64,000 nucleotides of DNA from Puia sp. (lineage in GTDB: Bacteria; Bacteroidota; Bacteroidia; Chitinophagales; Chitinophagaceae). The stretch spans positions 1 through 64,000 of the forward strand of contig JARLGZ010000104.1 of the NCBI GenBank assembly GCA_031292515.1, in the 5' to 3' direction. The translations under genes and the position numbers were made by a program. Positions 3,026 to 52,003 of the stretch are shown piece after piece (within the stretch, counting starts at the first letter, position 1; each line of letters begins with the position of its first letter). Under the pieces are notes generated by a model. That model was not told where the DNA came from. It did no database searches and saw only the letters and a program-made list of their open reading frames with translations.

Positions 3026-3093
3026 AACAGTGCAAGCCCGCGGCGGCGTCAGGCTGCTTGCTATCCGGCAAGTTTGCTGCGGTGTCTTCATCT

Positions 3094-3362: not shown

Positions 3363-3452
3363 GTAAGCATTCGATCCGGGGCATGTTTGACAGGAGTACA
3401 AGACAAGTTACCTTTGCCTCAGAACGATAAAAGAAGTGAGAAGTTCTTTGAT

Positions 3453-18027: not shown

Positions 18028-18041
18028 TATAAAAATAAAAC

Positions 18042-18110
18042 ATGCATCAGCAAAGCACGTCATACGCCCGAAATATTCTGCAGCAGCCTCCCTGCTGTTG
18101 CTGTTGTTGA
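18042..18110 (+). CDS. Polycysteine leader peptide (22 residues)
   Basis: A reading frame of 22 codons starts at the ATG at 18042 and ends QQPPCCCCC followed directly by TGA. It lies about 15 nt downstream of the site B operator and 101 nt upstream of the dioxygenase gene. Five consecutive cysteine codons (TGC TGT TGC TGT TGT) just before a stop are the hallmark of a ribosome-stalling leader that senses charged tRNA-Cys; polycysteine leaders of this kind are known as cysteine-responsive attenuators in mycobacteria. A second such frame precedes susC at 51826-51927, which argues against chance. Confidence 0.75.
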   Translation: MHQQSTSYARNILQQPPCCCCC

Positions 18111-18211: not shown

Positions 18212-19048
18212 ATGGGAACCAACATCACAAAATCTTTCCGATTCGACACAAAACCCAGCCGCACCCAATTAGACTACTTTGACCGCCACGGCATCATCCA
18301 GTTCAAACAATTCATCGGCAGGGATACCGTCAGACAGTTCCTGCAGGAGATAAAGTCTGTAGAAACCCACCTGATCGGCAAAGGCATCACCAAAGTGAAC
18401 GGCATCCCTTTGAAATTTGGCCGGGATACCGATGGCGCCCCTCTCATCCAACGGATCGCCTTCACTTCTCATTTTAGCCCCGTGCTCAGAAATTTCCTGC
18501 AGGACCCGCGCCTGCAGCTGCTTACCGGATTCCTCGGCGACTATTCCGGCCGGATAGGAGAAAACGAAAAAGACGGGCTCGTCGTCAACCAATATGTCAA
18601 TACAGGGGAAAGCGCTTTTAAGCAGCTGGGCTGGCATACGGATAGCCCGAGGGATCTTCTCCTCGGTTCCCGCATCATGCCCATGCTCAATGTAGGGCTG
18701 CATCTGGACGACTGCCCGAACGAAAACGGAGGCCTCCGCGTCCTCACGGGCACCCATCGCCAGGGTCTGTTCAGGCTGCTGTTCCGGAAGAAATATTTTG
18801 TGGACAACCGCCCCGACAAAGACGAAACAGGCTTCGAAATAGAAGCCGGCGACCTCACGGTACACGACGGCCGCCTCTGGCATAGGGTCCAACAGTCCCC
18901 GTTCGAAGGAGAGAAAAGCCGTCGCCGGGTCATGTACATCCCGATCATCACCGGCGCCTATCAGCCCAAAACGGCGGATAGCCCCACCCCCTTTTATCAC
19001 AAACTGGCAACCCTGAAATTAAACAGCTATCTCCGTCGAACCGCTTAA
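18212..19048 (+). CDS. Phytanoyl-CoA dioxygenase (PhyH)-family protein
   Basis: A 278-residue Fe(II)/2-oxoglutarate oxygenase-like protein. The metal site is visible as HTDSPRD (His and Asp, about residues 147-149) and HRVQQSPFEGEKSRRRVMYIP (distal His and the arginine that binds 2-oxoglutarate, about 229-245). The family hydroxylates diverse small molecules and lipids; some relatives cleave alkyl sulfates or sulfonates, which would suit its control by a polycysteine leader, but the substrate is not shown by sequence. It starts 101 nt after the leader peptide and is followed after 135 bp by the ThuA/PQQ gene on the same strand. Confidence 0.8.
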   Translation: MGTNITKSFRFDTKPSRTQLDYFDRHGIIQFKQFIGRDTVRQFLQEIKSVETHLIGKGITKVNGIPLKFGRDTDGAPLIQRIAFTSHFSPVLRNFLQDPRLQLLTGFLGDYSGRIGENEKDGLVVNQYVNTGESAFKQLGWHTDSPRDLLLGSRIMPMLNVGLHLDDCPNENGGLRVLTGTHRQGLFRLLFRKKYFVDNRPDKDETGFEIEAGDLTVHDGRLWHRVQQSPFEGEKSRRRVMYIPIITGAYQPKTADSPTPFYHKLATLKLNSYLRRTA

Positions 19049-34810: not shown

Positions 34811-35500
34811 TTATACATACAACAAAAAATCAAATACCGCCGGCGCCCTTGCCCCGGACCCTATAACCTGGCCCGCAGGTCCTTCCGTTTCATGGACCAT
34901 CGACGCCGCGGGGCCCTTTATCCAACCCTTGTATTCTTCGATTGCCTGCAGGCGCCCCGGTTCGCTGATATACCCGCTCTTCAGGACCTGGATACCCCTC
35001 GTTTCGGCAACCGTCGACCAGATGCCCGCTTTTTCCGCAAAGTCCGGGTCTCCGCGTCTATGCGCTTCATCCGCGGGAATGCTTTCAATGGCGTGATACC
35101 CCTGTTTCTCGAAATGACCGGGCAGGTGGTCAGCCATTTCGTTGTCCATACCCGCGTCGGCACGCCAGTCCAGGAAGGCCTCCTGGAAACGGCCCATGCT
35201 CCGCGGCGGAGGCGGCAGCCATGGTAGCACACGCGCCGAAACGACGAGGTAGAAGGGTTGGTCCGGTCGATAGCCGAACAGATCTGCCTCGATCAATTCC
35301 AGGTTGTGAAGCGAAGAATATTGCGCGTGGCCTTTCGCGATCAGGTGGTCGCTGCTGTCAATCCCGGTAACATGGCCGTGTTCGCCTACCCATTCGGCGA
35401 TCCCTGCCGTAATGGCGCCCGTTCCGCAACCGATGTCCAGCACGCGAATGCCCGTTTTCTGCAGGGCAATGATCGTCCGGAGTTTCGGGAACGACGCCCC
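34811..35500 (-). pseudogene. Class I SAM methyltransferase, decayed
   Basis: The frame contains a clear methyltransferase motif I, RVLDIGCGTGAITAGIA, and a family-typical C-terminal part, GRFQEAFLDWRADAGMDNEMADHLPGHF (position about 35160). Between SARVLPWL and PPPPRSM some 30 residues found in relatives are missing, an in-frame deletion. The N-terminal part is also absent: homology starts about where the upstream FGE gene ends, and the open frame runs on into that gene without a proper start. I take it for a remnant. The C-terminal tail also looks altered. Confidence 0.65.
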
Positions 35501-36756
35501 TACCGGCCACTTACACACCGGAACCCCACATGTTCCATCCCGCTGTCTTCCGTGCTCTTCATCCTGCGGGAGACCCGGTAACCCGTGCAGTAACTCTCGT
35601 TGCACAGGAAAGATCCACCGCGAATGACACGCTTGACGGCATAAGGCTCATCCGGGTCGTAGCTCCTGGCCGGCCCCTGCGGATCTCTTACCCCGCCGGC
35701 TTTGCTTGTTTCGGAGTAGTACTGATTATTATAATAGTCGGCACACCATTCCCATACATTCCCGGCCATATCGAAAAGCCCATACCCATTGGGGTCGAAA
35801 GAACCCACGGGTGCGGTAGAATAATATTTGTCGGCCACCGTATTCTTGTCCGGGAAATGTCCCTCCCAGAAATTGCCTTTTGGTTTCCCCGAACCGACAG
35901 GTTCGTTGCCCCAGGGATAGATATTGTCCCTTAGTCCGCCACGGGCGGCGTACTCCCATTCGGCCTCCGTGGGTAAGCGCTTACCCGCCCATTTGCAATA
36001 GGCCTGCGCGTCGTACCAGGAGACATGCACCACCGGGTAGCGTTCCTTGCCCCGGATATCGCTGCCAGGCCCCTGCGGATGTCTCCAGCTGGCGCCTTTC
36101 TTCCAGGCCCACCACTGGGTATAATCGTTCAACGCCACAGGATGATCGGGCCTGGCAAAAACCAGCGAAGCGGGGACCAGCAGGCTCGGGTCGGGTTGCT
36201 CCGTTCCGGGCGGAAGCTGCTTTTTTAACTCCTCCCAGTCCGGTTTGCGTTCCGCGGTCGTTACATACCCCGTAGCCTTTACAAATGCAGCAAACTGCGC
36301 GTTTGTCACCTCGGTGATATCGATCCAGAATCCGCTGACCGAGACCTCGTGCTTCGGATATTCGTCCTCCGATGCCTGTTTGTTGTCGGCGCCCATTCTG
36401 AAGTTTCCACCGGCAATCCACACCATTCCCCGATGCGCCGCTGCTTCCGCGGCCGAGGGGATGGCCGCAGCAGCTGTAGCGGAACGCTCACCGGTACCCG
36501 TGACTGCGCTTGCTTCCGTCGATTCGCCCGTGCCTCCCGGCAATTTCAGGGAAGGAAAGGGAGCCGCAACCGTCTTTGCAAAACGGGAAGGAATATTCGA
36601 CTCGCAGCAAATGGCTTTTTTCCCGGCGGTAGCCTGCACCCTATCTGCCGGACCGGTTGCATCCTTATCCGAGGCCCGGTCCTTGCAGGATAACGCTGCA
36701 AGGACGATCCCGAAAAACAAATATTGTAAGGGTATCCTCCCCGGTTTCAATTTCAT
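35500..36756 (-). CDS. Formylglycine-generating enzyme, lipoprotein
   Basis: A 418-residue lipoprotein from the ATG at 36756 (lipobox ALSC, Cys 24). The FGE-sulfatase domain spans about 105-415: GMVWIAGGNFRMGAD, GFWIDITEVTNAQFAAF, KRLPTEAEWEYAARGG, YGLFDMAGNVWEWCADYY and FRCV. The copper-binding active-site cysteine pair is visible in GGSFLCNESYCTGYR. This enzyme oxidises the sulfatase-motif cysteine to formylglycine, so it should mature the three neighbouring sulfatases, all of which carry C-x-P-T-R. The longer frame from 36804 comes from the repeats just upstream. Confidence 0.93.
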   Translation of the reverse strand: MKLKPGRIPLQYLFFGIVLAALSCKDRASDKDATGPADRVQATAGKKAICCESNIPSRFAKTVAAPFPSLKLPGGTGESTEASAVTGTGERSATAAAAIPSAAEAAAHRGMVWIAGGNFRMGADNKQASEDEYPKHEVSVSGFWIDITEVTNAQFAAFVKATGYVTTAERKPDWEELKKQLPPGTEQPDPSLLVPASLVFARPDHPVALNDYTQWWAWKKGASWRHPQGPGSDIRGKERYPVVHVSWYDAQAYCKWAGKRLPTEAEWEYAARGGLRDNIYPWGNEPVGSGKPKGNFWEGHFPDKNTVADKYYSTAPVGSFDPNGYGLFDMAGNVWEWCADYYNNQYYSETSKAGGVRDPQGPARSYDPDEPYAVKRVIRGGSFLCNESYCTGYRVSRRMKSTEDSGMEHVGFRCVSGR

Positions 36757-36800
36757 ACACTCATTTTTTTCATACGCTCTTTTTTCATACGCTCTTTTTT
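36754..36800 (-). repeat. Repeat array that duplicates the FGE start region
   Basis: On the minus strand AAAAAAGAGCGTATG occurs twice (36800-36786 and 36785-36771), followed by a diverged third unit AAAAAAATGAGTGTATG (36770-36754) whose ATG is the real start. Each unit ends in an ATG, in frame with the gene for the first two, so the array offers alternative starts. Confidence 0.8.
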
Positions 36801-36819
36801 TCAAGCACTCACCTTTTGC

Positions 36820-37926: not shown

Positions 37927-40206
37927 TTAATTTTCATTCTGCTCCACAACAACGCTCTTCACACGGCCATCAAAAGCGCCGGTGCCCGGATAGGCCCTTG
38001 TAACAGGCGAATTCAGGTCTCTCCCGACACTGATGCCTTCTCCCGCAACGGAGGCGAGGTAACGCGCCCGCTTGCCGATCTTCGACTGCCCGGCCGGGAC
38101 CCCGTTGACGGACAAGGACACCGAACCTGAGTCCGCGAAAACCACTTCTACAGTATTCGTCCCCGGAACCAGCGTCTGCGGAGAGGCGATCGTCGTCTCT
38201 TTGACACCATCGGTCAGCGTGTAGTAGAGGCTTCCGTCCTTCAGATAGAGGCTGGTGCCGCCCAGCAGGCCCCCGTTGGCGAAGATGACGCCGCCCTTCG
38301 AGCCTGCGGGCAATTCGACGGCAGCCGTGATTTTCACCGGCCCCTTCCCGATTTCGATACGGGTCTTTATCGAAGTCCCCTCGTAGATGATTCTGCGGGG
38401 CCTGATCTCCGGCGGGGGCACACCGGCCATATAATTTTTCAACGGGTATACATTGTAGGCCAGGGCAAGGCTGTCAAACAGAGTCTTCAACTCCTCCAGC
38501 TTCTGCGGATATTTTGCAGCCACATCCCGGGTCTCCGTCCAGTCTTCGTTCAGGTTGTACAGCTCCCACTTGTCCTTATCAAAGGGAGCCGGGCTGAAAT
38601 TGACATCGGTGATCCCTTTCTCGTTGAAAGTGTTGCGCGGATGATAGACGGCCGCCTTCCAGCCGTCTTTGTAGATGGACCTTCCGCCATGCAATTCATA
38701 GTATTGTACCCGGTGACGGGTAGGCGCCTGCGGATCTTTGATCGTATACACAAGACTGATGCCCTGGAAAGCCCGCTGCGGGTATCCGTTGATAACATCC
38801 GGGACTTTGATGCCCGCCAGTTCGACGGTCGTAGGGAGGATATCGACGATATGGCTGTATTGGGTACGGACCGTATTCTTCTCGCCGATCCCGTTCGTAT
38901 AATGTATGATCAGCGGATTGTGGGTAGCCCCCTCGGAGTTCGCATCGCTCTTCCAGTAGCGGAAAGGGGTATTGCATGCCTGCGACCAGCCCAGCGGATA
39001 GTTCGGATAGGAATATTCGGTACCGATCTTGTCGTATTGGCTAAGCTGGAAGGCGATGTCCTCTCCCTGGGACTTGTCCGCAAATCCTGTCGTGCCTGTA
39101 TAGGTCCCCTCCTTGCTGCCTCCGTTGTCCCCGATCATCAGGAAGATCAGGGTATTGTCGAACTGGCCGATCTGCTTCAGGTAGTTCACGATCCTTCCCA
39201 CTTCGTAATCGGTATAAGACAGGTAAGCGGCATAGACTTCCATGAAGCGGGCGAATACTTTTTTCTCGTCTGCGCCCAGCGATTCCCAGGCTTTTACGCC
39301 CGTCTGCCGGGAAGGAAGGGCAGCCCCTTTAGGAAGCAGTCCCAGGGCCTGCTGACGCCGAAAGACCTCTTCACGGTATCTGTCCCAACCTCCGTCAAAC
39401 TGACCCTTGTACTTATTGATCCAGTCGGCGGGCACATGATGCGGGGCATGCGTCGCGCCCGGGGCGAAATACAAAAAGAAAGGCTTATCCGGGTCGGCGG
39501 ATTTTTGATTGGCTATATAAGAAATCGCCTTGTCGGTAAGCAGCTCATTCAGGTGCCTGGTATTGGGCTCGATATCGACCGGGTTATTCTCTTCGATCAG
39601 TTGCGGATGCCACTGGTCGGTGAGACCGCCGATAAAACCATAAAAATGTTCGAAACCGCGTCCCGTCGGCCACCGATTATAGGGACCGGCTGCCGTCACA
39701 TCCTTAGGATGGGTCGAATGCCATTTACCCAATGCAAACGTATTGTAGCCATTCTCCTTGAATATCTCCGCGACGGTGCCGGCTTCAAAAGGGATATCAC
39801 CGGAGTAACCCGGTGTGCCGATCCCTAACTCGGCATGATGCCCCATCGCTACGCTGTGCGAATTACGCCCGGTCAGCAGCGCCGCCCGCGTGGGGCTGCA
39901 GATGCCCGTTGTATGGAAATTGGTATACCGGATCCCGTCATTGGCCAGGCTGTCGAAATTGGGTGTCTGTATCAGGCCCCCGAATGAAGAGCTGGCCCCA
40001 AAACCCACATCGTCGATGAGGATCCATAAGACATTTGGCGCACCTTTTGGCGCCCTGACCCTTTCGGTCCAGGACTGCTGCGTGGTCTCGATGGTTTTCC
40101 CGATCTTGCCCTCAAACTTCCGGACCGGGTCATATTGCGCAAAGACGGACAAAGGCGCCCACCCGGTCGCAATCACTGCCGCTGCAAAGAGGATCTTCGT
40201 TCTCAT
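37927..40206 (-). CDS. Arylsulfatase A (periplasmic, C-terminal extension)
   Basis: A 759-residue type I sulfatase with signal peptide (to FAQ, residue 24). The metal site begins ILIDDVGFG (Asp 65-66), and the formylglycine motif is CSPTR at 103-107 in GICSPTRAALLTGRN; GKWHS (about 170) is also present. After the sulfatase core a beta-rich extension (about 575-759) follows, which the two paralogues lack. It hydrolyses a sulfate ester; the overall pattern is close to bacterial arylsulfatases such as AtsA. It begins 79 nt after the fatty acid hydroxylase gene. Confidence 0.93.
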   Translation of the reverse strand: MRTKILFAAAVIATGWAPLSVFAQYDPVRKFEGKIGKTIETTQQSWTERVRAPKGAPNVLWILIDDVGFGASSSFGGLIQTPNFDSLANDGIRYTNFHTTGICSPTRAALLTGRNSHSVAMGHHAELGIGTPGYSGDIPFEAGTVAEIFKENGYNTFALGKWHSTHPKDVTAAGPYNRWPTGRGFEHFYGFIGGLTDQWHPQLIEENNPVDIEPNTRHLNELLTDKAISYIANQKSADPDKPFFLYFAPGATHAPHHVPADWINKYKGQFDGGWDRYREEVFRRQQALGLLPKGAALPSRQTGVKAWESLGADEKKVFARFMEVYAAYLSYTDYEVGRIVNYLKQIGQFDNTLIFLMIGDNGGSKEGTYTGTTGFADKSQGEDIAFQLSQYDKIGTEYSYPNYPLGWSQACNTPFRYWKSDANSEGATHNPLIIHYTNGIGEKNTVRTQYSHIVDILPTTVELAGIKVPDVINGYPQRAFQGISLVYTIKDPQAPTRHRVQYYELHGGRSIYKDGWKAAVYHPRNTFNEKGITDVNFSPAPFDKDKWELYNLNEDWTETRDVAAKYPQKLEELKTLFDSLALAYNVYPLKNYMAGVPPPEIRPRRIIYEGTSIKTRIEIGKGPVKITAAVELPAGSKGGVIFANGGLLGGTSLYLKDGSLYYTLTDGVKETTIASPQTLVPGTNTVEVVFADSGSVSLSVNGVPAGQSKIGKRARYLASVAGEGISVGRDLNSPVTRAYPGTGAFDGRVKSVVVEQNEN

Positions 40207-40285: not shown

Positions 40286-41407
40286 TTATTGCAAATGATA
40301 GGGACGGATGGGATGAACCGGGGCGCCGGACACAAAGTCTTCCTCTTCCCGGATTTCATGCCCTTGCCCCCGGTATTCCCCGGCCGGCAGCTCGTCTCCA
40401 ACCATCGGCCCGTTCAACGAGAGTTCGCTGCCCGGCTTCTTCGATTTGAAGATCGGCCAGAGGAATTGCGCATACCACTCTTCCTGTTTGTAGTGTTTGA
40501 TGCCAAAACTAACGGGGTATTGACGGGTGATGATCCCTGTCTTAAAGAGCACGTCCCATAGAAAGAACATGTTGCCGAAATTGCCTTTGTAATTACCCAC
40601 TCCGTCATCCGCGGTATCGGCATGATGGGCATGGTGTGTGGCAGGCGTGGAGATCAGCCTCTCCAGGACCCAGGCCGCGGGATGAAGGGCCTTATATTTA
40701 TAGAAGGGCTTGTCCCAGGGAATGCTGGAATGTGCGCTCAGCGTAATCAGCGATTTGACCCCGGTTACAAACAGGGCCGCATATCCCAGACCCATATAGG
40801 TCAAGGCTGCCGTCAGATAGATCTGTGAAAAGAATACCGTATAGATCACGTTCTGCCGGCTGGCCATCGCCATGCCCATATAAGGCGCCGAATGATGGGT
40901 GCGATGGAAACGCCACAGCCAGGGTACCTGGTGATGCAACCGGTGGTACCAGTACTGGGTCAGATCATCCGCGATCGCTATGATGAGGAAGGCCCACCAG
41001 AAGGGCACCCAGGAGAAAACATTCCTGGCCCCCGGGAGAATATAAGGCAGGAGGGCCAGGGTGAAATACGTCGTGAGAGGCCGCAGGATCACCTTGGGAA
41101 TGATGAAGCAGGCGATATCCAGGATCCGCTCATTGCGGCTCCACTTGTTCTCATAGAGCCGGAAGGCGAACTCGACGATACCCAGGACCACCATGATCGC
41201 CGGCAAACCCCAGGTCCCCAGGTTTGTAAAGACCGCTTGCAGCACCGGCCAGGTGTGGATCGGCTTCAAGGCGACGGGATTCTTCCAGGGCTGTTCCCCG
41301 GTGATGCGGAGCCAGGCGAATAGCAGGACGACCGGGAGTGCGTAGATGACCAGGCTGATCGTCCCATCCCTCAGGATTTTCGAAGCCACCTCTTTTTTTA
41401 TTTTCAT
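40286..41407 (-). CDS. Sterol desaturase / fatty acid hydroxylase family protein
   Basis: A 373-residue membrane di-iron enzyme with five or so helices and three histidine boxes: DLTQYWYHRLHHQ (about 150), WRFHRTHHS (about 165) and HHAHHADTADDG (about 263). It lies between sulfatases B and A with tight spacing, so it is part of the organosulfate operon. A lipid or sterol-like sulfated compound as substrate would explain the pairing with sulfatases, but this is inference. It is distinct from the paralogue at 23783-24700. Confidence 0.88.
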   Translation of the reverse strand: MKIKKEVASKILRDGTISLVIYALPVVLLFAWLRITGEQPWKNPVALKPIHTWPVLQAVFTNLGTWGLPAIMVVLGIVEFAFRLYENKWSRNERILDIACFIIPKVILRPLTTYFTLALLPYILPGARNVFSWVPFWWAFLIIAIADDLTQYWYHRLHHQVPWLWRFHRTHHSAPYMGMAMASRQNVIYTVFFSQIYLTAALTYMGLGYAALFVTGVKSLITLSAHSSIPWDKPFYKYKALHPAAWVLERLISTPATHHAHHADTADDGVGNYKGNFGNMFFLWDVLFKTGIITRQYPVSFGIKHYKQEEWYAQFLWPIFKSKKPGSELSLNGPMVGDELPAGEYRGQGHEIREEEDFVSGAPVHPIRPYHLQ

Positions 41408-41557: not shown

Positions 41558-43432
41558 TTATTTGATAGGCCCCTGTGTATCGCTGCCGTTCGGGTGATGT
41601 ATTTTTTTATCATAGACGTCGTGCCAGTCGATCAACGGGTAGAGATGGTTCTTCTCTGCCTGTTCGTCGAATACCTTCTTTAGCTCGGCCAGTTTCGCAG
41701 GGTATTTTTTGGCCAGGTCGACGCGTTCGTTGAAGTCGGTGTTCAGGTCGTACAATCCCCAGACATCTTCATCAAAACTCTTGTCGGGAACCGGCGCCCC
41801 TTCCTTGAAATCGAAGTCCACGTTGTCGGGATGATGCGCGGCTTCCGCCTTCCATCCGTTGTAGTAGATGGAACGGGATCCGAAAATATAATAGTGCTGT
41901 ACCACGTGCCTTGATGCTGCTTTGGCATCATTAAAGGAATAAGCCAACGAAGTCCCCTGGATGCTGTCCTGGGGAACATTGCGGATAGTCGCGGGAAACC
42001 GGATCCCGGCGATCTCCAGGGTCGTCGGCAAAACATCTATCACATGCCCGTATTGAGTGCGGATGCCGCCCTTGTCTTTGATCCCTTTCGGATAGAAAAC
42101 AATGAGGGGGTTATGAGTGCCGCCTTCGGCATCCGCATCCTGCTTCCATTCCCGGAAAGGAGTATTGGCGGCCTGTGCCCAGCCCAGGGGATAGTTAGTC
42201 GTTGCGGCGGCCGTGCCGATCGAATCTATATCTTCCAGGTTCTTCTTCAGGTAGTCGGCTTCCGATTTCTTGCGGGCGGAATTGGTTCTGGGTTCGATGA
42301 CGCCTTCAAAAGTGCCTTCCTTGCTGGCGCCGTTGTCGCCGATCATCACAAAGACGATCGTGTTTTCCAGCAGGTTGTTTTCACGCAGGTAGTTGATTAA
42401 CCTGCCTATCTGGAAGTCGGTATAGGTCAGATAGCCGGCATAGACTTCCATGAAGCGGGCAAACAGTTTCTTCTGATCGGCCGATAGCGAATTCCATTCC
42501 TGTACCCTTGGATTGCGGGGAGGCAGTTGAGCGTATGCGGGAACGACGCCAAGCTTCTTCTGGTTGGCTAACACCCTTTCCCGGAAGGAATCCCAGCCCT
42601 CGTCGAAATGTCCTTTATACTGGTCGCTCCAATACTTGTCGACCTGGTGCGGAGCATGGGTCGCGCCGGGCGCATAATAAAGGAAGAAGGGTTTGCCGGG
42701 CGCCGTTTTTTCCTGGCGGGCGATATAGCTGATCGCTTTATCGGTGATCTGCTCATTCAAATGCCTCCCGTCCGGGGTGACATGCGCGTTGTCTTCCACC
42801 AGGTCGGGTTTATACTGATCGGTTTGGGAGCCCAGGAATCCGAAGTTGTGATCGAAGCCCTTACCGCTCGGCCAGTGATCAAAGGGACCTACATCCGTTG
42901 CTTCTTCGTCGGGTGTCAGCCCATACTTACCTACCGTAAAAGTATTATAACCATTGTCCCGAAGGATTTCCGCGATGGTACCGTCGTTGGAAGGAATCCG
43001 TCCGTCATAGCCGGGAAAGCCCGCCGACATGGCGATATGCGAAAATCCGCCTTCATGTACAAAATGACTATTTCGTCCTGTCAGCAACGCGGATCTCGTA
43101 GGGGCGCATATCGCCGCCGTGTGGAAATTCGTATACCGGAGACCATTGTTTGCGAGACTGTCGAGTGTCGGCGTGCGAATCACGCCACCGAATGGCCCGG
43201 CAGCGCCGTATCCCACATCATCCAGCAGGATCCAGACGATATTGGGAGCTCCTGCCGGAGCCTTGTCAGGCTGGGCCCACCACTCTTTTGAATCCGCGAG
43301 CGTTTTACCGATGACGCCCTCGTAAGGCTGCTGCGTATAAGATGGACTGGACTGCTGCGCAAGCAGGGCCGTATGTGTAAAGCTGCCGGCAGTCAGCAAT
43401 ATTACCATAATCGATCTCGTAGATTTCATCAT
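41558..43432 (-). CDS. Arylsulfatase B (periplasmic)
   Basis: A 624-residue type I sulfatase with a signal peptide (to LLAQ, residue 26). Metal-site aspartates lie at 71-72 (WILLDDVGYG) and the formylglycine motif CAPTR at 109-113. VGKYGLTPDEEATD replaces the GKWH pattern of many sulfatases; the basic residue after GK differs from paralogue A. It is closer to sulfatase C (shared TDQYKPDLVEDNAH-type segment and similar length) than to A, so B and C probably arose by duplication. Confidence 0.93.
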   Translation of the reverse strand: MMKSTRSIMVILLTAGSFTHTALLAQQSSPSYTQQPYEGVIGKTLADSKEWWAQPDKAPAGAPNIVWILLDDVGYGAAGPFGGVIRTPTLDSLANNGLRYTNFHTAAICAPTRSALLTGRNSHFVHEGGFSHIAMSAGFPGYDGRIPSNDGTIAEILRDNGYNTFTVGKYGLTPDEEATDVGPFDHWPSGKGFDHNFGFLGSQTDQYKPDLVEDNAHVTPDGRHLNEQITDKAISYIARQEKTAPGKPFFLYYAPGATHAPHQVDKYWSDQYKGHFDEGWDSFRERVLANQKKLGVVPAYAQLPPRNPRVQEWNSLSADQKKLFARFMEVYAGYLTYTDFQIGRLINYLRENNLLENTIVFVMIGDNGASKEGTFEGVIEPRTNSARKKSEADYLKKNLEDIDSIGTAAATTNYPLGWAQAANTPFREWKQDADAEGGTHNPLIVFYPKGIKDKGGIRTQYGHVIDVLPTTLEIAGIRFPATIRNVPQDSIQGTSLAYSFNDAKAASRHVVQHYYIFGSRSIYYNGWKAEAAHHPDNVDFDFKEGAPVPDKSFDEDVWGLYDLNTDFNERVDLAKKYPAKLAELKKVFDEQAEKNHLYPLIDWHDVYDKKIHHPNGSDTQGPIK

Positions 43433-43495: not shown

Positions 43496-45349
43496 TTAAT
43501 GCGGAAGGACAATCTTCGCCTTCGGATTGATTCTCCTCTTCAAGACATCGTCCCAGTCGATAAACGGATAGATATTATATTGTTTAGCCTCCTGGTCAAA
43601 AAGCACCTTCAACGCCGCCAGTTTCCCTGGGTATTTTTTTGCCAGGTCGATGCGCTCGTTGAAATCCTCATTCAGGTTGTAAAGCTCCCATACGTCTTTG
43701 TCATAATCGGCGACGACAGGCGCCTTGCCCGTAAGGACATTTGCCTCATCGATAAAATCGGGATGATGATAGGTCTCCGCCTTCCAGCCGTCCTTATAGA
43801 TCGACCGGGATCCGAAAATATAGTAGTATTGGTCGGTATGCCGGCTGGCTGCTTTTGCGTCCGCAAAAGAGTAGACAAGGGAAGTGCCCTGCACGGAATC
43901 CTGGTGGATGCCACGGATGTATTCCGGTAGTTTCACACCCACGAACTCGGCCGTCGTTGGCAGCAGGTCGATCACATGACCATATTGATTCCGGATCCCT
44001 CCCTTGTCTTTGATCCCCTTCGGATAAAAGACGATCAGGGGATTGCGGGTACCTCCTTCGGCATTTGCATCCTGTTTCCAGTATTTGAAAGGGGTATTGG
44101 CTGCCTGCGCCCAACCCAGTGGATAATTCGCCTCTACGCCGGACGGGGTACCGATCGCATCGATCTTGTCGAGATTGTACCGGATTGCCTCCTGGTCAGA
44201 CAGCGGCTTGCTGAACAGGCTTCGGTCGATATCACCGTGGAGGGTTCCTTCCTTGCTCGCGCCATTGTCACCAATGACGATGAAGACGACCGTATTGTCG
44301 AGCTGGCCGATCTGTTTCAGATAGTTGATTAATCTGCCGACCTGAAAATCGGTATAGGTCAGATAACCCGCGTACACTTCCATGAAGCGTGCGTATAATT
44401 TCCTTTCCTCTGCCGGGAGCGTGTTCCAGGCCTTTATATATTCGTTACGGGCAGGAAGCTGCGCATTGGCGGGGACGAGCCCCAGTTTCTTCTGGTTGGC
44501 AAGGACCTTCTCGCGGTAAACATCCCAACCCTCGTCGAACTTTCCTCTGTAGGGATTGCTCCAGGAGGTATCCACCTGGTGCGGTGCATGCGTGGCGCCT
44601 GGCGCATAATAGAGAAAAAAGGGTTTGTTCGGAGCCGCTTTCTTTTGGCGGGCTATATAGCTGATCGCCTTGTCGGTGATCTGTTCATTCAGATGACGTC
44701 CGTCCGGAACGACATGGGCATCGTCCTCCACGAGATCGGGCTTGTATTGATCGGTCTGGGAACCCAGGAATCCGAAGAAATGTTCAAATCCCTTTCCGCT
44801 GGGCCAGTGATCGAAGGGTCCGGCATCCGTGGCTTCTTCATCGGGTGTCACCCCGTATTTGCCGACGGCAAAGGTATTGTACCCGTTGTCCCGAAGTATT
44901 TCGGCAATCGTTCCTTTTGTGGAAGGCAGGTGTCCGTCCCAGCCGGGGAAGCCCGCCGACAGGATCGAATGCGAAAAACCGCCTTCATGCACGGAGTGGT
45001 GGTTGCGACCCGTCAGCAAAGCGGCGCGGGTAGGCGCGCAAATACCGGCCGTATGAAAATTTGTGTACCGGAGACCATTAGCTGCCAGACTGTCAAAGAC
45101 GGGCGTGTTGATGAGCCCCCCGAAAGTATGCGTAGCGCCGAATCCTACATCATCGAGCAGGATCCAAACGACATTGGGCGCTCCGGGCGGCGCCTTTACC
45201 GGCTCCGGCCACCATTCTTTGGAATCCGCAAGCGTTCTCCCGACGACACCCTGGTAAGGCGGCTCGGGCGGTGGCGGCGTAGTCTGGGCGGAAGCCTGGG
45301 CGGCCAGGATGACCGTCAGCGCAAAAAGAGAAATTTTTCTGATGTACAT
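43496..45349 (-). CDS. Arylsulfatase C (periplasmic)
   Basis: From the ATG at 45349, which gives a proper signal peptide (MYIRKISLFALTVILAAQASA), the protein has 617 residues. A frame open to 45502 would add residues from the spacer. Aspartates 66-67 (WILLDDVGFG) and CAPTR at 104-108 mark the active site. Like B it has VGKYGVTPDEEATD in place of GKWH. It is the first sulfatase of the operon, 67 bp after the PstS-like gene. Confidence 0.93.
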   Translation of the reverse strand: MYIRKISLFALTVILAAQASAQTTPPPPEPPYQGVVGRTLADSKEWWPEPVKAPPGAPNVVWILLDDVGFGATHTFGGLINTPVFDSLAANGLRYTNFHTAGICAPTRAALLTGRNHHSVHEGGFSHSILSAGFPGWDGHLPSTKGTIAEILRDNGYNTFAVGKYGVTPDEEATDAGPFDHWPSGKGFEHFFGFLGSQTDQYKPDLVEDDAHVVPDGRHLNEQITDKAISYIARQKKAAPNKPFFLYYAPGATHAPHQVDTSWSNPYRGKFDEGWDVYREKVLANQKKLGLVPANAQLPARNEYIKAWNTLPAEERKLYARFMEVYAGYLTYTDFQVGRLINYLKQIGQLDNTVVFIVIGDNGASKEGTLHGDIDRSLFSKPLSDQEAIRYNLDKIDAIGTPSGVEANYPLGWAQAANTPFKYWKQDANAEGGTRNPLIVFYPKGIKDKGGIRNQYGHVIDLLPTTAEFVGVKLPEYIRGIHQDSVQGTSLVYSFADAKAASRHTDQYYYIFGSRSIYKDGWKAETYHHPDFIDEANVLTGKAPVVADYDKDVWELYNLNEDFNERIDLAKKYPGKLAALKVLFDQEAKQYNIYPFIDWDDVLKRRINPKAKIVLPH

Positions 45350-45416
45350 TATCGTGATTGAAAAGGTTATCAATAGCGTTATAAACGATGTTTTAAAAAA
45401 AGAAAGGAGGAGAACC

Positions 45417-46364
45417 CTAACGAACAGATATATCTGATACGATCTGTCGCTGGTCCACCAGGGTCTCCTTGCCAGGCACCAGGAAACCATATTCGTGATC
45501 ATACTGCTGGCCGTCCGTCAGGATCCATTGCAGAAAGTCCGCGAGCTCCCTATTGGAACTGGTACGGGAGAATATCACATTGACATTCTCGACCAGCAAA
45601 TGCCGGTTGTATGCTTTTTCAGCAAAAGCAATCACCTGGTCCAGGTCACCATAGAAGTTCTCCCAGGAATCTATTTTTCCGTCGCCGTCCAGGTCCAGCG
45701 GGATGATGGCGATGCTATCCAGCGGTTTGCGGGTTTTGAGATCGTAGAGGAAACCGAGGTTGTTATAGGAGATGCCGTTCGTATCTCTGATTACGGCCTC
45801 CAGCAGATCCTGGTCGTCTCCCTTCACGCCGATCCCTTTGATGTCCTTTTGCTGGCTGCCAAAATGATTGGCAAAGGCGCGGGAAGCGCAGGCGGATTTC
45901 TCCCGTTTGTAGACGGCGAAATGATAGGCGGAAGGGATCGGATCCGTTCCGTGATTGTCCGCAAAATAAATCTGCCTGAAGTCGGCATCGGAAAACCCCT
46001 TCGCTTGCAGGGCCGCGACGTCGCTCCGCCGGCTGCTCACGACCGGCAGCTGCAGATAGCGGTTCAGGATCACCGAAGTCTGACCTTCCTTCACGTCACT
46101 GGACGCGAGCCTGTGCGAGGCAATTACGAGATCGGCGCTGTCGGCAGGGATGCGACTATCCAACAGAATGGTAATGCCCGGATGCAAACGGGTGTATTCT
46201 TCGATCCATTTCCGGAAGATCGGGTGCACGAGCCGGGTGCCGGTGACACGTAAGACCCGGGTACCCCCTCTCCCGGAGACTCTGGCAGGATTCGATCCCG
46301 GCTGTTGCCCGGCGACCACCAGGAGGCCCAACAGACCTGCAACCGAGAACAGTATTTTTTTCAT
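45417..46364 (-). CDS. PstS-like periplasmic substrate-binding protein
   Basis: From the ATG at 46364 a signal peptide (MKKILFSVAGLLGLLVVAG) leads a protein of 315 residues of the phosphate-binding type. Motifs are VTGTRLVHPIFRKWIEEYTRLHP, SDVKEG, and a late AYNRHLLVENVNVIF with a final FLQWILTDGQQYDHEYGF. No ABC permease or ATPase gene is near. The 52 residues upstream in the open frame derive from an 18-nt repeat array. Its place between susD and sulfatase C suggests binding of a sulfate or phosphate ester, or an oxyanion, delivered by SusCD. Confidence 0.75.
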   Translation of the reverse strand: MKKILFSVAGLLGLLVVAGQQPGSNPARVSGRGGTRVLRVTGTRLVHPIFRKWIEEYTRLHPGITILLDSRIPADSADLVIASHRLASSDVKEGQTSVILNRYLQLPVVSSRRSDVAALQAKGFSDADFRQIYFADNHGTDPIPSAYHFAVYKREKSACASRAFANHFGSQQKDIKGIGVKGDDQDLLEAVIRDTNGISYNNLGFLYDLKTRKPLDSIAIIPLDLDGDGKIDSWENFYGDLDQVIAFAEKAYNRHLLVENVNVIFSRTSSNRELADFLQWILTDGQQYDHEYGFLVPGKETLVDQRQIVSDISVR

Positions 46365-46628: not shown

Positions 46629-48218
46629 TCAGTCCCAACCCGGATTCTGTTGAAAAGCCGGGTTACGGTCGCCATACAGATCAATCTCCGTCTGCGGTAT
46701 CGGAAACAAGGTGTCCTTTAGGGTGGCCGCCGATTTGGGATTCCCGTGCATACTGAGCACGGACTGGAGATAATATTGTCCAGGGCCCAGATCGGTCCTC
46801 CTGACGAGATCAAACCAACGCTGGCTCTCCTGGATGAACTCCTTGCGGCGTTCCGTGAAGACGGCATCCCTGAAACCGGACTGGCTCAGCCCTGACAAAT
46901 CGTAGGTGTGGTCCGTATAGTTGCCACCTGAGGTATAAGAATTATAGGCCCTGGCCCTCACGATATTGATAGCCGTATAGGCATCCGCCGTAGGGCCGCC
47001 ATTCAGCTCGTTCAGCGCTTCCGCATACAGCAGCAGGACTTCGGCGTAACGGATCACCGTGTAATTGATCTTGCTGTTGGCGCCCTGGTTACCCTGCAGG
47101 GCGGTGACAAAGCCCGTGCTCTGGTCGACGAATTTCAGGAAGTTGAAAAAAGGCCAGTTCACCTGTTTGCCCGTCGACTGGTTGAACAGAGAATCGTAGA
47201 AAGTGGCGTTTCTCCGTTGATCCGTCACGTCGAAGATCTCCACGACGGTACTGTCGGCAGGAATATCGCTGGTATACGCAGAATTGCTCCAGGTGAAAGA
47301 GCTGAGGTTTTGGGTGCTGGTAAATCCCCCTGCGGTGCCGTTAAACTGGGCGGAAAACACATGCTCCTTCCCGTTTTTAGTAGCTGCCTGGAAGGCATCG
47401 GAGAATTTCGGGAAGAGGTCATATCCATAGTTTCCCGTAGTGGCCGCTTGCAGACCGGCAGTCCCGGAAGTGATCACCTTCGAAAGCTCCGTGACGGCAT
47501 CTGTCCAATCCTGTCGCTGAACATAGACCTTTGCAAGCAGGGCGTGCGCCGCGCCACTGGTCACCCTTCCGACATTGGCCCCGGTATAGGATGCCGGCAG
47601 GTTGACCGCGGAATCCAGGTCGGTGACAATCTGTGCGTAGATAGAATCCCTGGAGGTTCTGCTGACCAGCGTGTTTGCACTGGAGATAGACCCCGCGTCA
47701 TGCAATACCAGGGGAACAGGGCCAAATAACCTTACCAGGTCGAAATAATACAAAGCCCTGATAAACCTTGCTTCCCGGACCAGGTTGATTGCCGAATGTG
47801 CAGGATCGACAAACTGTGAGGCGGGAATGGCGGGGATCCGGTCGATGGCGATATTAGCCTTGTCGATACCCCAGTATAATTGCGCATAGATTTTGTGAAC
47901 GCGGTCATTCGTACTGACATAAGTGGCAGTCCCCAAGGCCCGCACGTCGGGGTTTGTATTCGAAGGACTATAGACCTGGTTGTCGCTGGGGTTGTCGACC
48001 AGCAGGTTCAAATTCCTGCCGTAAATAGGGAAGTCATTATTGACATCGGTGGTCAACGTACTGTAAACGGCCGTTACCGCAGCCACGGCATCACTCTGGG
48101 TCTGGTAGAAGTTCCCGGGTGTAAGGCTGCCCTGCGGGCTCTCGGACAGTTTCTGGCAGGAGGACAAGACGGTAGCTCCCGCGAGAAAAGTATATAAAAT
48201 CGAATGGATTGTTTTCAT
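46629..48218 (-). CDS. susD: SusD/RagB-family outer membrane lipoprotein
   Basis: A 529-residue SusD-like lipoprotein (lipobox LSSC, Cys 21). The family signature LSESPQGSLTPGNFY follows, the TPR-like core contains ADRIPAIP-type and ARFIRALYYFDLVRLFGPVPLV (about 149-170), and the C-terminal SusD part reads RYAEVLLLYAEALNEL and RRKEFIQESQRWFDLVR. It binds the substrate on the cell surface and delivers it to SusC, whose gene ends 61 nt upstream. A sulfated compound is the inferred ligand. Confidence 0.95.
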   Translation of the reverse strand: MKTIHSILYTFLAGATVLSSCQKLSESPQGSLTPGNFYQTQSDAVAAVTAVYSTLTTDVNNDFPIYGRNLNLLVDNPSDNQVYSPSNTNPDVRALGTATYVSTNDRVHKIYAQLYWGIDKANIAIDRIPAIPASQFVDPAHSAINLVREARFIRALYYFDLVRLFGPVPLVLHDAGSISSANTLVSRTSRDSIYAQIVTDLDSAVNLPASYTGANVGRVTSGAAHALLAKVYVQRQDWTDAVTELSKVITSGTAGLQAATTGNYGYDLFPKFSDAFQAATKNGKEHVFSAQFNGTAGGFTSTQNLSSFTWSNSAYTSDIPADSTVVEIFDVTDQRRNATFYDSLFNQSTGKQVNWPFFNFLKFVDQSTGFVTALQGNQGANSKINYTVIRYAEVLLLYAEALNELNGGPTADAYTAINIVRARAYNSYTSGGNYTDHTYDLSGLSQSGFRDAVFTERRKEFIQESQRWFDLVRRTDLGPGQYYLQSVLSMHGNPKSAATLKDTLFPIPQTEIDLYGDRNPAFQQNPGWD

Positions 48219-48279: not shown

Positions 48280-51200
48280 CTAGAATGTTACATTGACGCC
48301 GACCGTATAGGTGCGGTAATTGGGATAGATACCATAGTCGATCCCTGGTTGCAGATTGTTCTGATCGTAAAAGTTTGCTTCCGGATCCAAACCCCTGTAA
48401 TGCGTAATGGTGAACAGATTCTGCGCGGACACATAGATCCTGATCTGTTTGGCCAGGATCTTCGAAGCCAGGTCCTGCGGGAAATTGTAGCCCAGCGTGA
48501 CGTTCTTCAACCGGATATAAGACCCGTCTTCGATATAGATATCCGCCACCTGCACGACCGGCGCGTTGACGACTTTGGGATATTTACCCTTGGGGTTGGC
48601 GACCGAATCCCAGCGATCCAGCAGTACCGTAGATACATTGCTGGTCGTGGTCGTCTTCTCCAGCTGTTGCTGCAGGAGATTGAAGATCTTATTCCCGAAT
48701 GAACCCTGGAGGAAGATGGACAGGTCGAAATTCCGGTATGTGAAGGTGTTGTTGAAGCTGGCCGTGAACTTAGGCTGGGCGCTTCCCAGGTTATGTTTGT
48801 CGGCAGTCGTCACTACACCATCGCCATTATAGTCCACATATTTCCTGTCCCCGGTCTGCTGGGACACCCCGGCGAGTTTTGCCACGGATTTGGATCCATA
48901 GACATCGGACGTGGTCAGCAGCCCGTCGGTGCTATACCCCCAGAATGTTCCCACCGGCAAACCGACTTTGACGATCACGGGCGATACCTGTCCCGTAGGA
49001 GCTACCGGGGAGAACGAAGAACTGGGCCCCAGGCTGAGCACTTTGTTCGCATTCTTTGCGTAGAGCAGGGTCGATTTCCACACAAACTCCTTAGTTCGGA
49101 CGTTGACGGTATTCAAGCTCAGTTCCACCCCCTTGTTCTCCAGGCTTCCTATATTCTCCGAGGCCGAAGCATACCCCGTCGAAAGGGGTATCAACCCGGT
49201 ACCGGTGATGAAGAGATTCGTGGTCTTCTTATAATAGGCATCGGCCGTCAAACTGATCCGTTTGTCGAGCAAACTCGCGTCAAACCCTCCATTGTACTGG
49301 GTAGTGGTCTCCCAGGTCAGATCGGGATTGGACAATTGCGAAGGCGACAAGCCGTTGACGGCAGTCAGCGGGCTGCCCAGATAATAACCGGCTGAAGTGA
49401 TGGTCGCAATGGAGCTGTAGGCAGGGAAATTCGCATTCCCGGTACTGCCGGCCGTCAACCTCAGTTTCAGGTTGTCGATGGTCTTGGACAACGGTTCGAA
49501 GAATCCCTCGTCGGATATATTCCAGGATACGCCGAGAGCAGGAAAGAATCCCCATTTCTTGTTGACACCAGCCGGCGAAGCTCCGTCGGCCCTTCCGGAT
49601 AAGGTCACATTATAGCGATGCTCGAAGGAGTAAGACACTCTTCCCAAATAAGAATTTCTAATCTGTTTAGCCTCTCCCGATCCGGTGACCTTATTGATGG
49701 TGGCACTATAAAGATTGTTATAAGTAGTAGCGTCCGAAGGGAAGGACTGCCCGGCCAGGAATGTATTTTCCGATTTCTGGTATTGCGTGGTATAACCCGC
49801 CAATGCGTCGAGGAAGTGCTTGCCGCCGATAGCATGCGACCAGGCCAGGGTATTCTCATTCAGCCAGCTCAGATAATTAATATTGCCTACAGAACCGGAC
49901 CCCGTGATCGTCCCGCCGTTGTTGCCCGCGCTGGTATACGAGGGAGCGTAGTAATTCAGCTTCGTCGTCAGCAGGTCCGCGCCGATAGTCGACTTCAGCG
50001 TGAACTCGCTGCTCAGCTTGTATTCGCCCGCCAGGTTGCCCAGGACATGGGTCAGCCTGGTCTGGTTGATTATTGAAATGATGTCTTTGATCGAATTGTC
50101 TCCGAATTGCTGGCCGCTGATCGTGTTCAGCGTCGGGTTGATGGCAGGTTGCGGGGTCGTGTTGAAGCTCCCGTCGGCATTTCTGACGGTCTGCAGGGGA
50201 TTGTTCAGATAGAGGCTGGAATACGCATTGCTGAACCCGATATCATTATAGGCACTCCCCGTCAGCTTGTCTTCGACGGAATTGCTCCCGAAGATGCTGG
50301 TATTGATCTTGAAGTTTTTCGAGTAATTCTTTTCGTAGTTGAATCGAGCCGAATACCTTTTAAAATCCGTGCCCAGCACAATCCCTTTCTGATCGAAATA
50401 ATTCCCTGAAATGGAATACCGGGACTTGTCATCGCCGCCGTAAAGCGTTATCTGGTGATTTTGTAAAAATCCCGTCCTCTGCGCAGCGGCCGGCCAGTTG
50501 CCATTTACACCGGCAGCCCCAAGCGAATCGATGAGTTTCTTATTAGCGGCCAGTCCTGACTGGATGGTGGGCGTTGCCTTATAGAGATCGTCAAACAGTT
50601 TGGCCCATTGCTCCCCGTTCATGACGGAAAGCTGTTTCGCCGTCTGTTGCGTGCCATAAGATCCGCTATAGGAGATATTATTGCTGTTCCGGGTGCCTCT
50701 CCTGGTAGTAATAATCACCACCCCGTTGGCGCCACGGCTCCCGTAAATCGCGGTCGCCGATGCATCCTTCAACACATCGATGGTCTCGATGTCGGCGGGG
50801 TTGATGGTCGACAAACCGTTCGAACTTGCCCCGGTTACGGAAGGAACGGTCCCGGAGGAAGGCGCCAGGTTGGTAAGGCTATTATCGTTGTAATAGATGA
50901 ACCCGTCGATGACATACAGGGGATCATTTCCAAAACTCAGCGAATTGCCTCCGCGGATACGGATGGTGGCCGTTGCCCCGGGCTGACCGGAACTTTGGCT
51001 GACGACCACGCCGGCAACGGCGCCCTGCAGGAGGTTGTCGAAGGAAGAGGAAGGCCGGGCCAGGAGTTCCTTGGGCACAGAGGCGACAGAACCCGTCACA
51101 TCGCTTCTTCTTTGTGTCCCATACCCGACCACGACCGCTTCGGTAAGGGAGGCATTCCCTCCCTTCAACTGGATGAGAATATGTCCATAACTGTCGACGG

Positions 51201-51552
51201 GGATCTCGACGCCCTGGTACCCCACATAGCTGACGATATATACCAGCGGGACCCGCTGACCGGTTATGAATTTGAACTCTCCGTCGTTATTGGTGATCAC
51301 CTCGTGCGTGGTGCCTTTGATGTGTACGACCGCGCCCGCCAGAGCTTCCTTAGTTTTTTCATCGATGACCCTTCCCCATAACGACACGTTAGCCGTCTGA
51401 GCCTTCGTATGCCCGGCGGAAATGAGGGTGAGAAACAGAGACGCGAAAAGAGCGTTTGCCCAGCCGGAGGCTGCATGACGGAACCTTAATCGGCTTTTAA
51501 TAACAGTTAGTTTGGTCGAGGTATTTTTTACATACCTTTGAAGTAGATTCAT
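48280..51552 (-). CDS. susC: SusC/RagA-family TonB-dependent receptor
   Basis: A 1090-residue outer membrane transporter: long signal peptide (about 1-52), a carboxypeptidase-regulatory-like domain (about 55-130), TonB-box-like TEAVVVGYGTQRR, the plug (SFDNLLQGAVAGVVVSQSSG, ATAIYGSRGANGVVIITTR) and a 22-strand barrel ending in VGVNVTF. It imports a substrate bound by SusD using TonB energy. It leads the organosulfate operon. Upstream lie a 400-nt leader with a polycysteine reading frame, a promoter and the operator site C, a pattern suggesting sulfur control. Confidence 0.95.
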   Translation of the reverse strand: MNLLQRYVKNTSTKLTVIKSRLRFRHAASGWANALFASLFLTLISAGHTKAQTANVSLWGRVIDEKTKEALAGAVVHIKGTTHEVITNNDGEFKFITGQRVPLVYIVSYVGYQGVEIPVDSYGHILIQLKGGNASLTEAVVVGYGTQRRSDVTGSVASVPKELLARPSSSFDNLLQGAVAGVVVSQSSGQPGATATIRIRGGNSLSFGNDPLYVIDGFIYYNDNSLTNLAPSSGTVPSVTGASSNGLSTINPADIETIDVLKDASATAIYGSRGANGVVIITTRRGTRNSNNISYSGSYGTQQTAKQLSVMNGEQWAKLFDDLYKATPTIQSGLAANKKLIDSLGAAGVNGNWPAAAQRTGFLQNHQITLYGGDDKSRYSISGNYFDQKGIVLGTDFKRYSARFNYEKNYSKNFKINTSIFGSNSVEDKLTGSAYNDIGFSNAYSSLYLNNPLQTVRNADGSFNTTPQPAINPTLNTISGQQFGDNSIKDIISIINQTRLTHVLGNLAGEYKLSSEFTLKSTIGADLLTTKLNYYAPSYTSAGNNGGTITGSGSVGNINYLSWLNENTLAWSHAIGGKHFLDALAGYTTQYQKSENTFLAGQSFPSDATTYNNLYSATINKVTGSGEAKQIRNSYLGRVSYSFEHRYNVTLSGRADGASPAGVNKKWGFFPALGVSWNISDEGFFEPLSKTIDNLKLRLTAGSTGNANFPAYSSIATITSAGYYLGSPLTAVNGLSPSQLSNPDLTWETTTQYNGGFDASLLDKRISLTADAYYKKTTNLFITGTGLIPLSTGYASASENIGSLENKGVELSLNTVNVRTKEFVWKSTLLYAKNANKVLSLGPSSSFSPVAPTGQVSPVIVKVGLPVGTFWGYSTDGLLTTSDVYGSKSVAKLAGVSQQTGDRKYVDYNGDGVVTTADKHNLGSAQPKFTASFNNTFTYRNFDLSIFLQGSFGNKIFNLLQQQLEKTTTTSNVSTVLLDRWDSVANPKGKYPKVVNAPVVQVADIYIEDGSYIRLKNVTLGYNFPQDLASKILAKQIRIYVSAQNLFTITHYRGLDPEANFYDQNNLQPGIDYGIYPNYRTYTVGVNVTF

Positions 51553-51633
51553 GTTAATGATGTTTTGTCGTTAATGTAATCACGATGAAGACCGGTAAGT
51601 GATTGGCGTTACTGGACTGGTCTCATCCATTGT

Positions 51634-51666
51634 CCCGGTAAGAAGAAATTTTTACCGGGTTTTTTT
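51634..51666 (+). terminator. Perfect stem-loop and T-run in the susC leader
   Basis: CCCGGTAA (51634-51641) and TTACCGGG (51652-51659) form an 8-bp stem followed by seven T on the plus strand, the form of an intrinsic terminator in the direction opposite to susC. In the susC transcript the same bases form a hairpin preceded by A7. Its CCGGTAA arm could instead pair with a second TTACCGG copy at 51591-51597, about 40 nt closer to susC. Confidence 0.6.
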
Positions 51667-51825
51667 ATTCTCGTCTTTTAGTCATTGCCGGTTAGCTTTT
51701 TTATGATGTGATCGATGGCATGTATACGCCTTGCCTCATACTCCGCAAGGAGAGCATGGACAAGCAATACCACATTTATATTTATGAATGATTAGTGTGA
51801 AGGGGGACACGGGTAGATAGAAATG

Positions 51826-51927
51826 TCAGCAACAACAGCAGCACTCTTTCAGCAGAATACCACCGTAAAAACCCTTTCGGGGGACCGGTTTGAAGGGTGA
51901 AAGCAAAGCAGCGGATTGGATACCCAT
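51826..51927 (-). CDS. Polycysteine leader peptide (33 residues) upstream of susC
   Basis: A frame of 33 codons from the ATG at 51927 begins MGIQSAALLSPF and ends GGILLKECCCCC followed by TGA at 51828-51826. Five cysteine codons in a row directly before a stop are repeated from the leader upstream of the dioxygenase (18042-18110), although the rest of the two peptides differs. It lies about 36 nt downstream of a perfect promoter -7 box and about 270 nt upstream of the susC start. It likely acts as a cysteine-sensing attenuator for the susC operon. Confidence 0.75.
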   Translation of the reverse strand: MGIQSAALLSPFKPVPRKGFYGGILLKECCCCC

Positions 51928-51962: not shown

Positions 51963-52003
51963 CAAATATAAATTAAAATATTAGTCTACCAAATTAGTAG
52001 GTA
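51963..52003 (-). promoter_or_regulatory. susC promoter with AGTCTAC-N7-GTAGACT operator, site C
   Basis: On the minus strand TTTG (51993-51990), exactly 19 nt and TATATTTG (51970-51963) form a consensus Bacteroidota promoter. AGTCTAC-CAAATTA-GTAGGTA (51983-52003) overlaps the -33 box, with the left arm identical to sites A and B and the right arm diverged at the end. Transcription would start near 51956, about 30 nt before the polycysteine leader. Confidence 0.8.

Follow-up and report, generated by a model that had tools for sequence, protein, structure and literature searches.

Introduction

The attenuators of the trp, his and leu operons combine a run of regulatory codons with a terminator and an antiterminator arm. 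Poly-Cys leaders are known in Actinobacteria, where those of mycobacteria were reportedly the subject of experimental work by Canestrari and colleagues in 2020. Ahead of sulfur genes of mycobacteria, Propionibacterium and Bifidobacterium, the excerpted text of Seliverstov et al. (2005; PMC1262725) predicts leader peptides that have Cys runs near the stop codon and lack terminators, and suggests an involvement of Rho; a later paper, in its excerpted part, refers to the mycobacterial experiments (PMC9094748, citing Canestrari, 2020). Leader-peptide attenuation before amino-acid operons has been described in Flavobacterium psychrophilum, with cysteine unnamed in the excerpt concerned (PMC9723704). 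For Bacteroides, excerpts of one paper describe the DonS family, cis-antisense RNAs of PULs, and also short ORFs within long 5' UTRs (PMC7366714).

Here we describe a poly-Cys leader ORF upstream of a susC-susD-sulfatase operon in Puia sp., found in a window of 64,000 nt (the whole stretch of DNA that was analyzed). The original prediction knew of no Cys leader described for a SusCD-sulfatase locus, and our literature search agreed: among the matches listed, from a literature with most subscription journals outside it, no published poly-Cys leader came from Bacteroidota, and none stood on a SusCD locus. The comparisons below suggest, with a rough probability of 0.85, that the ORF is the gene of a cysteine-sensing attenuator peptide for an organosulfate-scavenging SusCD/sulfatase operon, and that it is one of a set of Cys leaders before sulfur genes in its family.

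Results

The leader ORF and its promoter

The original prediction placed a 33-codon frame, opening with ATG and closing with five Cys codons and TGA, about 36 nt behind a promoter box and inside a long susC leader. The frame is present exactly as described on the minus strand (51927-51826), the distance from the end of the TATATTTG box to its ATG measured 35 nt, and its stop codon lies 273 nt from the susC ATG (Table 1). Together with the TTG 19 nt upstream, the box forms what we take to be the Bacteroidetes promoter arrangement. The leader region gave no match in Rfam at E values up to 1.

Table 1. Positions in the window of the leader ORFs, their control elements and the genes that follow them
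Feature	Position	Strand	Remarks
Poly-Cys leader ORF, MGIQSAALLSPFKPVPRKGFYGGILLKECCCCC	51826..51927	minus	33 aa; kept in most orthologues
TATATTTG box, Bacteroidetes-type -7	51963..51970	minus	TTG 19 nt upstream of box
Palindromic operator candidate ACCTACTAATTTGGTAGAC	51984..52002	minus	2 mismatches to GTCTAC-N7-GTAGAC; overlaps promoter TTG; kept in orthologues
Spacer, leader stop to susC ATG	51553..51825	minus	273 nt; susC ATG at 51552
Putative cis-antisense RNA, 3' region	51599..51666	plus	conserved loop GTGATTGGCGTTAC at 51599-51612; intrinsic terminator at 51634-51666
susC, TonB-dependent receptor	48280..51552	minus	
susD	46629..48218	minus	
PBP-like protein	45417..46361	minus	PBP_like_2 below cut-off; distant relative in L169 ABC operon beside cysH
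AtsA-like sulfatase, CAPTR motif	43496..45502	minus	true start probably within ORF
Sulfatase, CAPTR motif	41558..43432	minus	
Fatty-acid-hydroxylase family protein	40286..41407	minus	
Sulfatase, CSPTR motif	37927..40206	minus	
FGE-sulfatase domain protein, sulfatase-modifying factor family	35500..36804	minus	
Exact palindrome GTCTACTATATTTGTAGAC	18008..18026	plus	spans TATATTTG box of second leader
Second poly-Cys leader, MHQQSTSYARNILQQPPCCCCC	18042..18110	plus	
PhyH-family dioxygenase	18212..19048	plus	downstream of second leader

Both strands of the 7.34-Mb genome together hold seven sites at which four Cys codons (CCCC) are followed by TGA or TAA, so that, by our own arithmetic, the chance of meeting one in a given 450-nt stretch of one strand is about 2e-4. 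We examined 110 distinct CCCC-stop sites of this genome and its relatives, namely those in L001-L050, in L218-L277 and in the window, a count made without the later sites of order-level genomes and of separately fetched stretches. Accidental frames are common among them, with 75 of the 110 falling within ORFs of 150 aa or more; 17 others were intergenic without an ATG and 18 were intergenic with an ATG frame. Fourteen of these 18 precede cysH (nine), a sulfatase susC (four) or PhyH (one, in the window), and the remaining four have no assigned target. All nine cysH genes (L033, L041, L227, L234, L236, L240, L257, L273 and L277) were confirmed by tblastn, the CysH match in L240 being split over two pieces. 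As a background, we took 325 genes encoding 200 aa or more, from loci most of which had been retrieved for other purposes. An uncovered CCC leader lay within 300 nt of nine of these genes (two further matches overlapped long ORFs). Six of the nine were targets already known, two were new members with sulfur-related genes or an exact palindrome, and the last (L163) was put down to chance. Accidental frames in longer ORFs notwithstanding, a chance ORF or a trinucleotide-repeat artefact is exceedingly improbable for the susC leader, given its position, promoter, conservation in orthologues, mixed TGC and TGT codons and association with sulfur genes.

Summed over six hand-picked close leader pairs (at least 78% identity), changes at codon positions 1, 2 and 3 numbered 23, 17 and 45, a third-position excess for which a binomial estimate, with alignments at the protein level, gives about 1e-4. 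In more divergent cysH leader pairs there was little or no such excess (e.g., 10/7/9 and 8/7/8). In close pairs, this excess points to selection on the peptide. Together with the conserved Cys run, it would agree with a peptide that is a product in its own right, such as a small metal- or thiol-binding protein, instead of acting in cis as a leader. We consider such a product very unlikely, as leaders before cysH, susC and PhyH have little in common beyond the Cys run, remain directly upstream of the same genes and, in Saprospiraceae-type genomes, come with a terminator and an antiterminator arm that matches it.

Conservation of the leader with the susC locus

A search of 33 genomes of the genus, together with the contig-end locus L175, gave 11 susC orthologues, defined as having at least 50% identity. 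The original prediction had named loss of the Cys run at a retained locus as evidence against itself, and conservation in relatives with the same operon is also what an attenuator would call for. The run was kept, at three or more Cys, in eight of the 11 orthologues (e.g., MQPTTAHTTYSSKAIILKSLYSGMLLKICCCC and MKYLSRYKSFSSKAISNESLYGGILLKECCCC), was reduced to CC in one and had gone with the leader in two. The shortened leader ends ERCC directly before its stop codon, and the closer orthologue leaders share a YxG(I/M)LLK block ahead of the Cys run. The two loci without a leader (G014 and G022) retained the palindrome and the promoter box. At a twelfth locus (G004; L306, 2674-3081), which is apparently decaying, the palindrome and the antisense hairpin were found with a SusC match of only 37 residues and no Cys leader. 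The leader is therefore not essential to the locus, having been lost in two of 11 orthologues, reduced to CC in one and being absent at the susC-fragment locus.

None of 19 distant susC homologues (33-37% identity) had a Cys run of three. One distant susC, at 38% identity, has a leader ending AGCCGCC, and downstream of this susC lie two sulfatases and a gene for FGE. Downstream DNA was fetched for eight orthologue loci; susD and one or more related sulfatases were present at every one of these, and FGE at six. In eight comparison SusC loci there was no sulfatase match, with a weak FGE match about 13 kb away in L331.

The palindrome and the antisense strand

Of 38 leaders scored for the palindrome GTCTAC-N7-GTAGAC, 27 had a copy with no more than two mismatches, either in the 110 nt upstream of the ATG or just beyond it. 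L234, L277 and L183 were scored as misses, a two-mismatch palindrome being found beyond the scored stretch in each, and the palindrome was absent from both Pontibacter leaders and from four of the five Saprospiraceae-type leaders. A TAnnTTTG box starts 10-60 nt upstream of the leader ATG in 29 of the 38. Because a reversed-pattern control outnumbered the real pattern in most genomes, whole-genome palindrome counts are no evidence, and significance was judged against shuffled versions of the stretch upstream of each leader. The genome of the window has a palindrome upstream of a SAM riboswitch (RF00162, 67.5 bits) and the gene for a PLP enzyme of Cys/Met metabolism (L296, about 3007-3435). Other one-mismatch palindromes were near genes without an evident sulfur role; in the window, GTCTACAAAATAAGTAGAG (17058-17076, one mismatch) lies between a ceramidase-like ORF and a 399-aa ORF.

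The plus-strand terminator opposite the susC leader consists of CCCGGTAAGAAGAAATTTTTACCGGG followed by seven T, and points away from susC; the original prediction had left it unmentioned. It was present in nine of the 11 best susC matches (L178-L188) and in none of the next 19, with changes on both arms that preserve pairing. The loop pattern gave 10 matches in 39 genomes, of which eight were at susC orthologues, one at the susC-fragment locus (G004) and one in G028, where the stretch fetched held no SusC match. A riboswitch-like reading of the susC-leader hairpins was dropped, as the terminator is antisense and the matches to the loop pattern are as just described. Judged by its sequence, the plus-strand region (51599-51666) is a candidate DonS-like antisense RNA, and if it is expressed, the operon would have three controls in the palindrome, the leader and the antisense RNA.

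Control could lie with the palindrome, its regulator and the antisense RNA, leaving the leader as a dispensable remnant. This would agree with the persistence of palindrome and promoter in the two leaderless orthologues, with the palindrome at the susC fragment, with the confinement of the antisense terminator to the best susC matches and with an Rrf2-family gene that adjoins cysH in one Flavobacterium. Most orthologues nevertheless keep the leader, and leaders also precede other sulfur genes, making a remnant quite unlikely.

Cys leaders before other sulfur genes

The window's second leader, with its palindrome (18008-18110, plus strand), also precedes a large ThuA/GSDH protein. We examined 20 of 36 PhyH matches: a CCC leader was present at the seven highest-scoring loci, the window's included, with GTG as its start codon in one case, and at none of the remaining 13.

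In the same genome, the cysH-cysD-cysN-methyltransferase operon starts with MIIPSSLSNLYVSFCCSNTCCCC, 60 nt ahead of cysH. The scan of cysH in named genomes comprised 37 loci, with L117 left out. A CCC leader was found at 10 of the 36 loci examined and none with CCC at the other 26, the Cys frames of L096-L098 (within a long upstream reading frame) and that of L109 (CCC, no start codon) being uncounted. The ten leaders belong to four Chitinophagaceae MAGs, two Saprospiraceae MAGs, two Pontibacter species and two MAGs labelled only Bacteroidetes; by best-segment identity among full-length matches, the closest named cysH locus was that of a Chitinophagaceae MAG (L111, 83%). A sample of the phylum contained a close CysH in 45 of 148 genomes. 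When 30 of its 46 CysH matches were examined, four (own genome included) had a CCC leader and one had a tandem Met/Cys pair, and within the window's family three of four had such a leader. By these counts the trait is patchy in the phylum. Flavobacterium sp. SM15 (L094, 3600-4000) has two tandem Met/Cys-rich leaders before cysH, each followed by a hairpin and a T-run, and L345 has a similar tandem pair.

Transport and uptake loci are also found behind such leaders. In L169 (6797-12245), an operon of PBP, two permeases and an ATPase lies behind a leader ending QACCCCN, and is followed by cysH with its own leader ending CCCFICCSCCI. From this arrangement, the PBP-like family may handle sulfate or a similar anion. 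In L324 (5960-15335), an exact palindrome and MTPTIQLTSCCC stand before SusCD, an amidohydrolase, a luciferase-like monooxygenase and an amino-acid permease. Luciferase-like monooxygenases include sulfonate-cleaving enzymes.

The sulfatase operon

The solved structures closest to the first sulfatase are arylsulfatases, including 4cxs and 1hdh (E values 2e-66 to 2e-65; 2.4e-65 for 1hdh). We take 1hdh to be AtsA of Pseudomonas aeruginosa, an enzyme under sulfate-starvation control. Outside the genus, a search with the PBP-like protein turned up a single closely similar locus, which has a sulfatase and FGE and, in the stretch concerned, no susC. Cys-type sulfatases and an FGE-type factor in one operon are fitting for sulfur scavenging. 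In an attenuator, the codon run should match the amino acid made or salvaged downstream, and here five Cys codons stand before a sulfatase operon in a genome whose cysHDN genes have a Cys leader as well.

Terminators, spacers and hairpins

Neither strict nor relaxed scans found an ordinary sense-strand intrinsic terminator in the susC spacer, where a classical attenuator would have one. There was likewise none in 12 scored Chitinophagaceae-type cysH spacers (L273 was left out of spacer and terminator scoring, as an overlapping ATG had been picked). Saprospiraceae-type leaders (from L089, L091 and L092, of which L092 has no label beyond Bacteroidetes) had an intrinsic terminator in five of five cases, against 4 of 73 control stretches; the five precede cysH or a second PAPS-reductase-like gene. 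In L089 and L092 this second, divergent gene lies upstream of cysH and has its own Cys leader and terminator. In these leader ORFs the Cys codons are followed by CCGAAGCGGC, a near-copy of the 3' arm of the terminator. A ribosome stalled on Cys would free CCGAAGCGGC to pair with the 5' arm, and a ribosome reading on would cover it. Minimum-energy folds favored the terminator each time, also when the stalled ribosome was modelled.

The first 45 nt of the window's spacer have a C fraction of 0.36 and a G fraction of 0.04, placing it among the most C-rich and G-poor extremes (1.2% of 162 controls reach it). Genus cysH spacers had a mean C minus G of 0.243, against 0.032 in 90 control stretches (p = 1.2e-5, n = 8); for susC spacers C-richness was weak to marginal (p = 0.054, n = 10). 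The read-out that we favor is Rho-dependent termination, which a ribosome stalled on the Cys codons would block, with translational control as its main rival.

Under translational control, the leader would also sense cysteine, with the position of the ribosome freeing or hiding the start region of susC or cysH instead of deciding transcription termination. The distance from leader to cysH is short and nearly constant (52-63 nt in the eight genus loci measured) and holds no terminator, as in the mycobacterial poly-Cys leaders that are predicted, in the excerpted text, without terminators (PMC1262725). On the other hand, the susC spacers range in length from 50 to 273 nt, no shared long-range pairing of the Cys codons with the susC start emerged in eight individual folds, and Saprospiraceae-type and Flavobacterium relatives have terminators. 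We regard translational control as a serious possibility that falls somewhat short of even odds.

A hairpin with the Cys codons as its 3' arm fits five of six aligned close susC leaders (L184 does not) and, in the window's leader (L178), has a lower energy than its shuffles (z of -3.88). Across 28 representatives, the mean z was -0.81 with p ≤ 0.1 in 10 of 28, a modest enrichment. The relaxed terminator scan flagged the Cys-codon hairpins of L178, L175 and the PhyH locus L138, and weak hairpins at the PhyH loci L142 and L143. With the U-rich tail UUGUUGCU, this hairpin might itself bring about weak termination or pausing, and a ribosome stalled on those codons would keep it open. Its stem is rich in wobble pairs with few G-C pairs, its U tract is interrupted, it is absent from the stricter scan and it is only modestly enriched across leaders, so we think such a terminator unlikely.

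Discussion

Conservation of the leader, together with its recurrence before other sulfur genes, means that its reading as a cysteine attenuator is well supported by comparison. This had been the central inference of the original prediction, and it is supported by the orthologues, the copy before cysHDN, the anatomy of the Saprospiraceae-type leaders and the sulfatase/FGE operon. In the mechanism that we propose, a regulator at GTCTAC-N7-GTAGAC would gate transcription, which would start just past the TATATTTG box, and a ribosome would immediately translate the short leader. When Cys-tRNA is plentiful, the ribosome would pass the Cys codons, stop and leave, and the C-rich RNA behind it would allow Rho termination, or a fold would block translation. 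With little Cys-tRNA, it would stall on the Cys codons and open the hairpin whose 3' arm they form; the stalled ribosome would shield the RNA, the operon would be expressed and sulfate esters would be harvested during the sulfur shortage. We infer from sequence comparison the translation of the leader in vivo, its response to cysteine and the sign of that response, and the read-out through Rho or translation in this lineage. The leader thus probably lets the cell turn on sulfur scavenging when cysteine is short.

More broadly, we think it reasonably probable that a cysteine-attenuator regulon extends across the family, in which certain SusCD loci scavenge sulfur and not carbon. It would include sulfatase, monooxygenase, dioxygenase, ABC-transporter and cysHDN genes, with a common palindromic operator and poly-Cys leaders unrelated in sequence, read out by an intrinsic terminator in some families and, elsewhere, by Rho or translation. 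The usual view of SusCD sulfatase loci is that they gain carbon from glycans, and the Cys-codon leader speaks for sulfur here. A short Cys-ending ORF just past TAnnTTTG, often with GTCTAC-N7-GTAGAC, offers a signature for sulfur-scavenging operons. The leaders also form a natural series, one sensor with and without an intrinsic terminator, which makes the missing read-out step directly testable.

The components of the locus can each be set beside a known system. The first sulfatase has AtsA (1hdh) among its nearest relatives of solved structure and carries a Cys-type active-site motif, but it sits in a SusCD operon behind a Cys leader. As in the DonS family, an antisense hairpin and terminator overlap the susC leader, here in this susC group only; the difference is that this leader is shared with a Cys-codon ORF, and that the RNA here is a putative one. 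The Saprospiraceae-type cysH leaders share the layout of the trp, his and leu attenuators, and the Flavobacterium Met/Cys leaders have hairpins and T-runs, whereas the window's leader and the scored genus leaders are without a terminator. The likeness in layout to the actinobacterial poly-Cys leaders lies in a short upstream ORF, Cys codons near its stop, sulfur genes next and no intrinsic terminator. Those leaders belong to another phylum, and here TAnnTTTG starts 10-60 nt ahead of the ATG (29/38), often with the palindrome. Unlike the actinobacterial set, the leaders described here also precede SusCD/sulfatase and dioxygenase loci.
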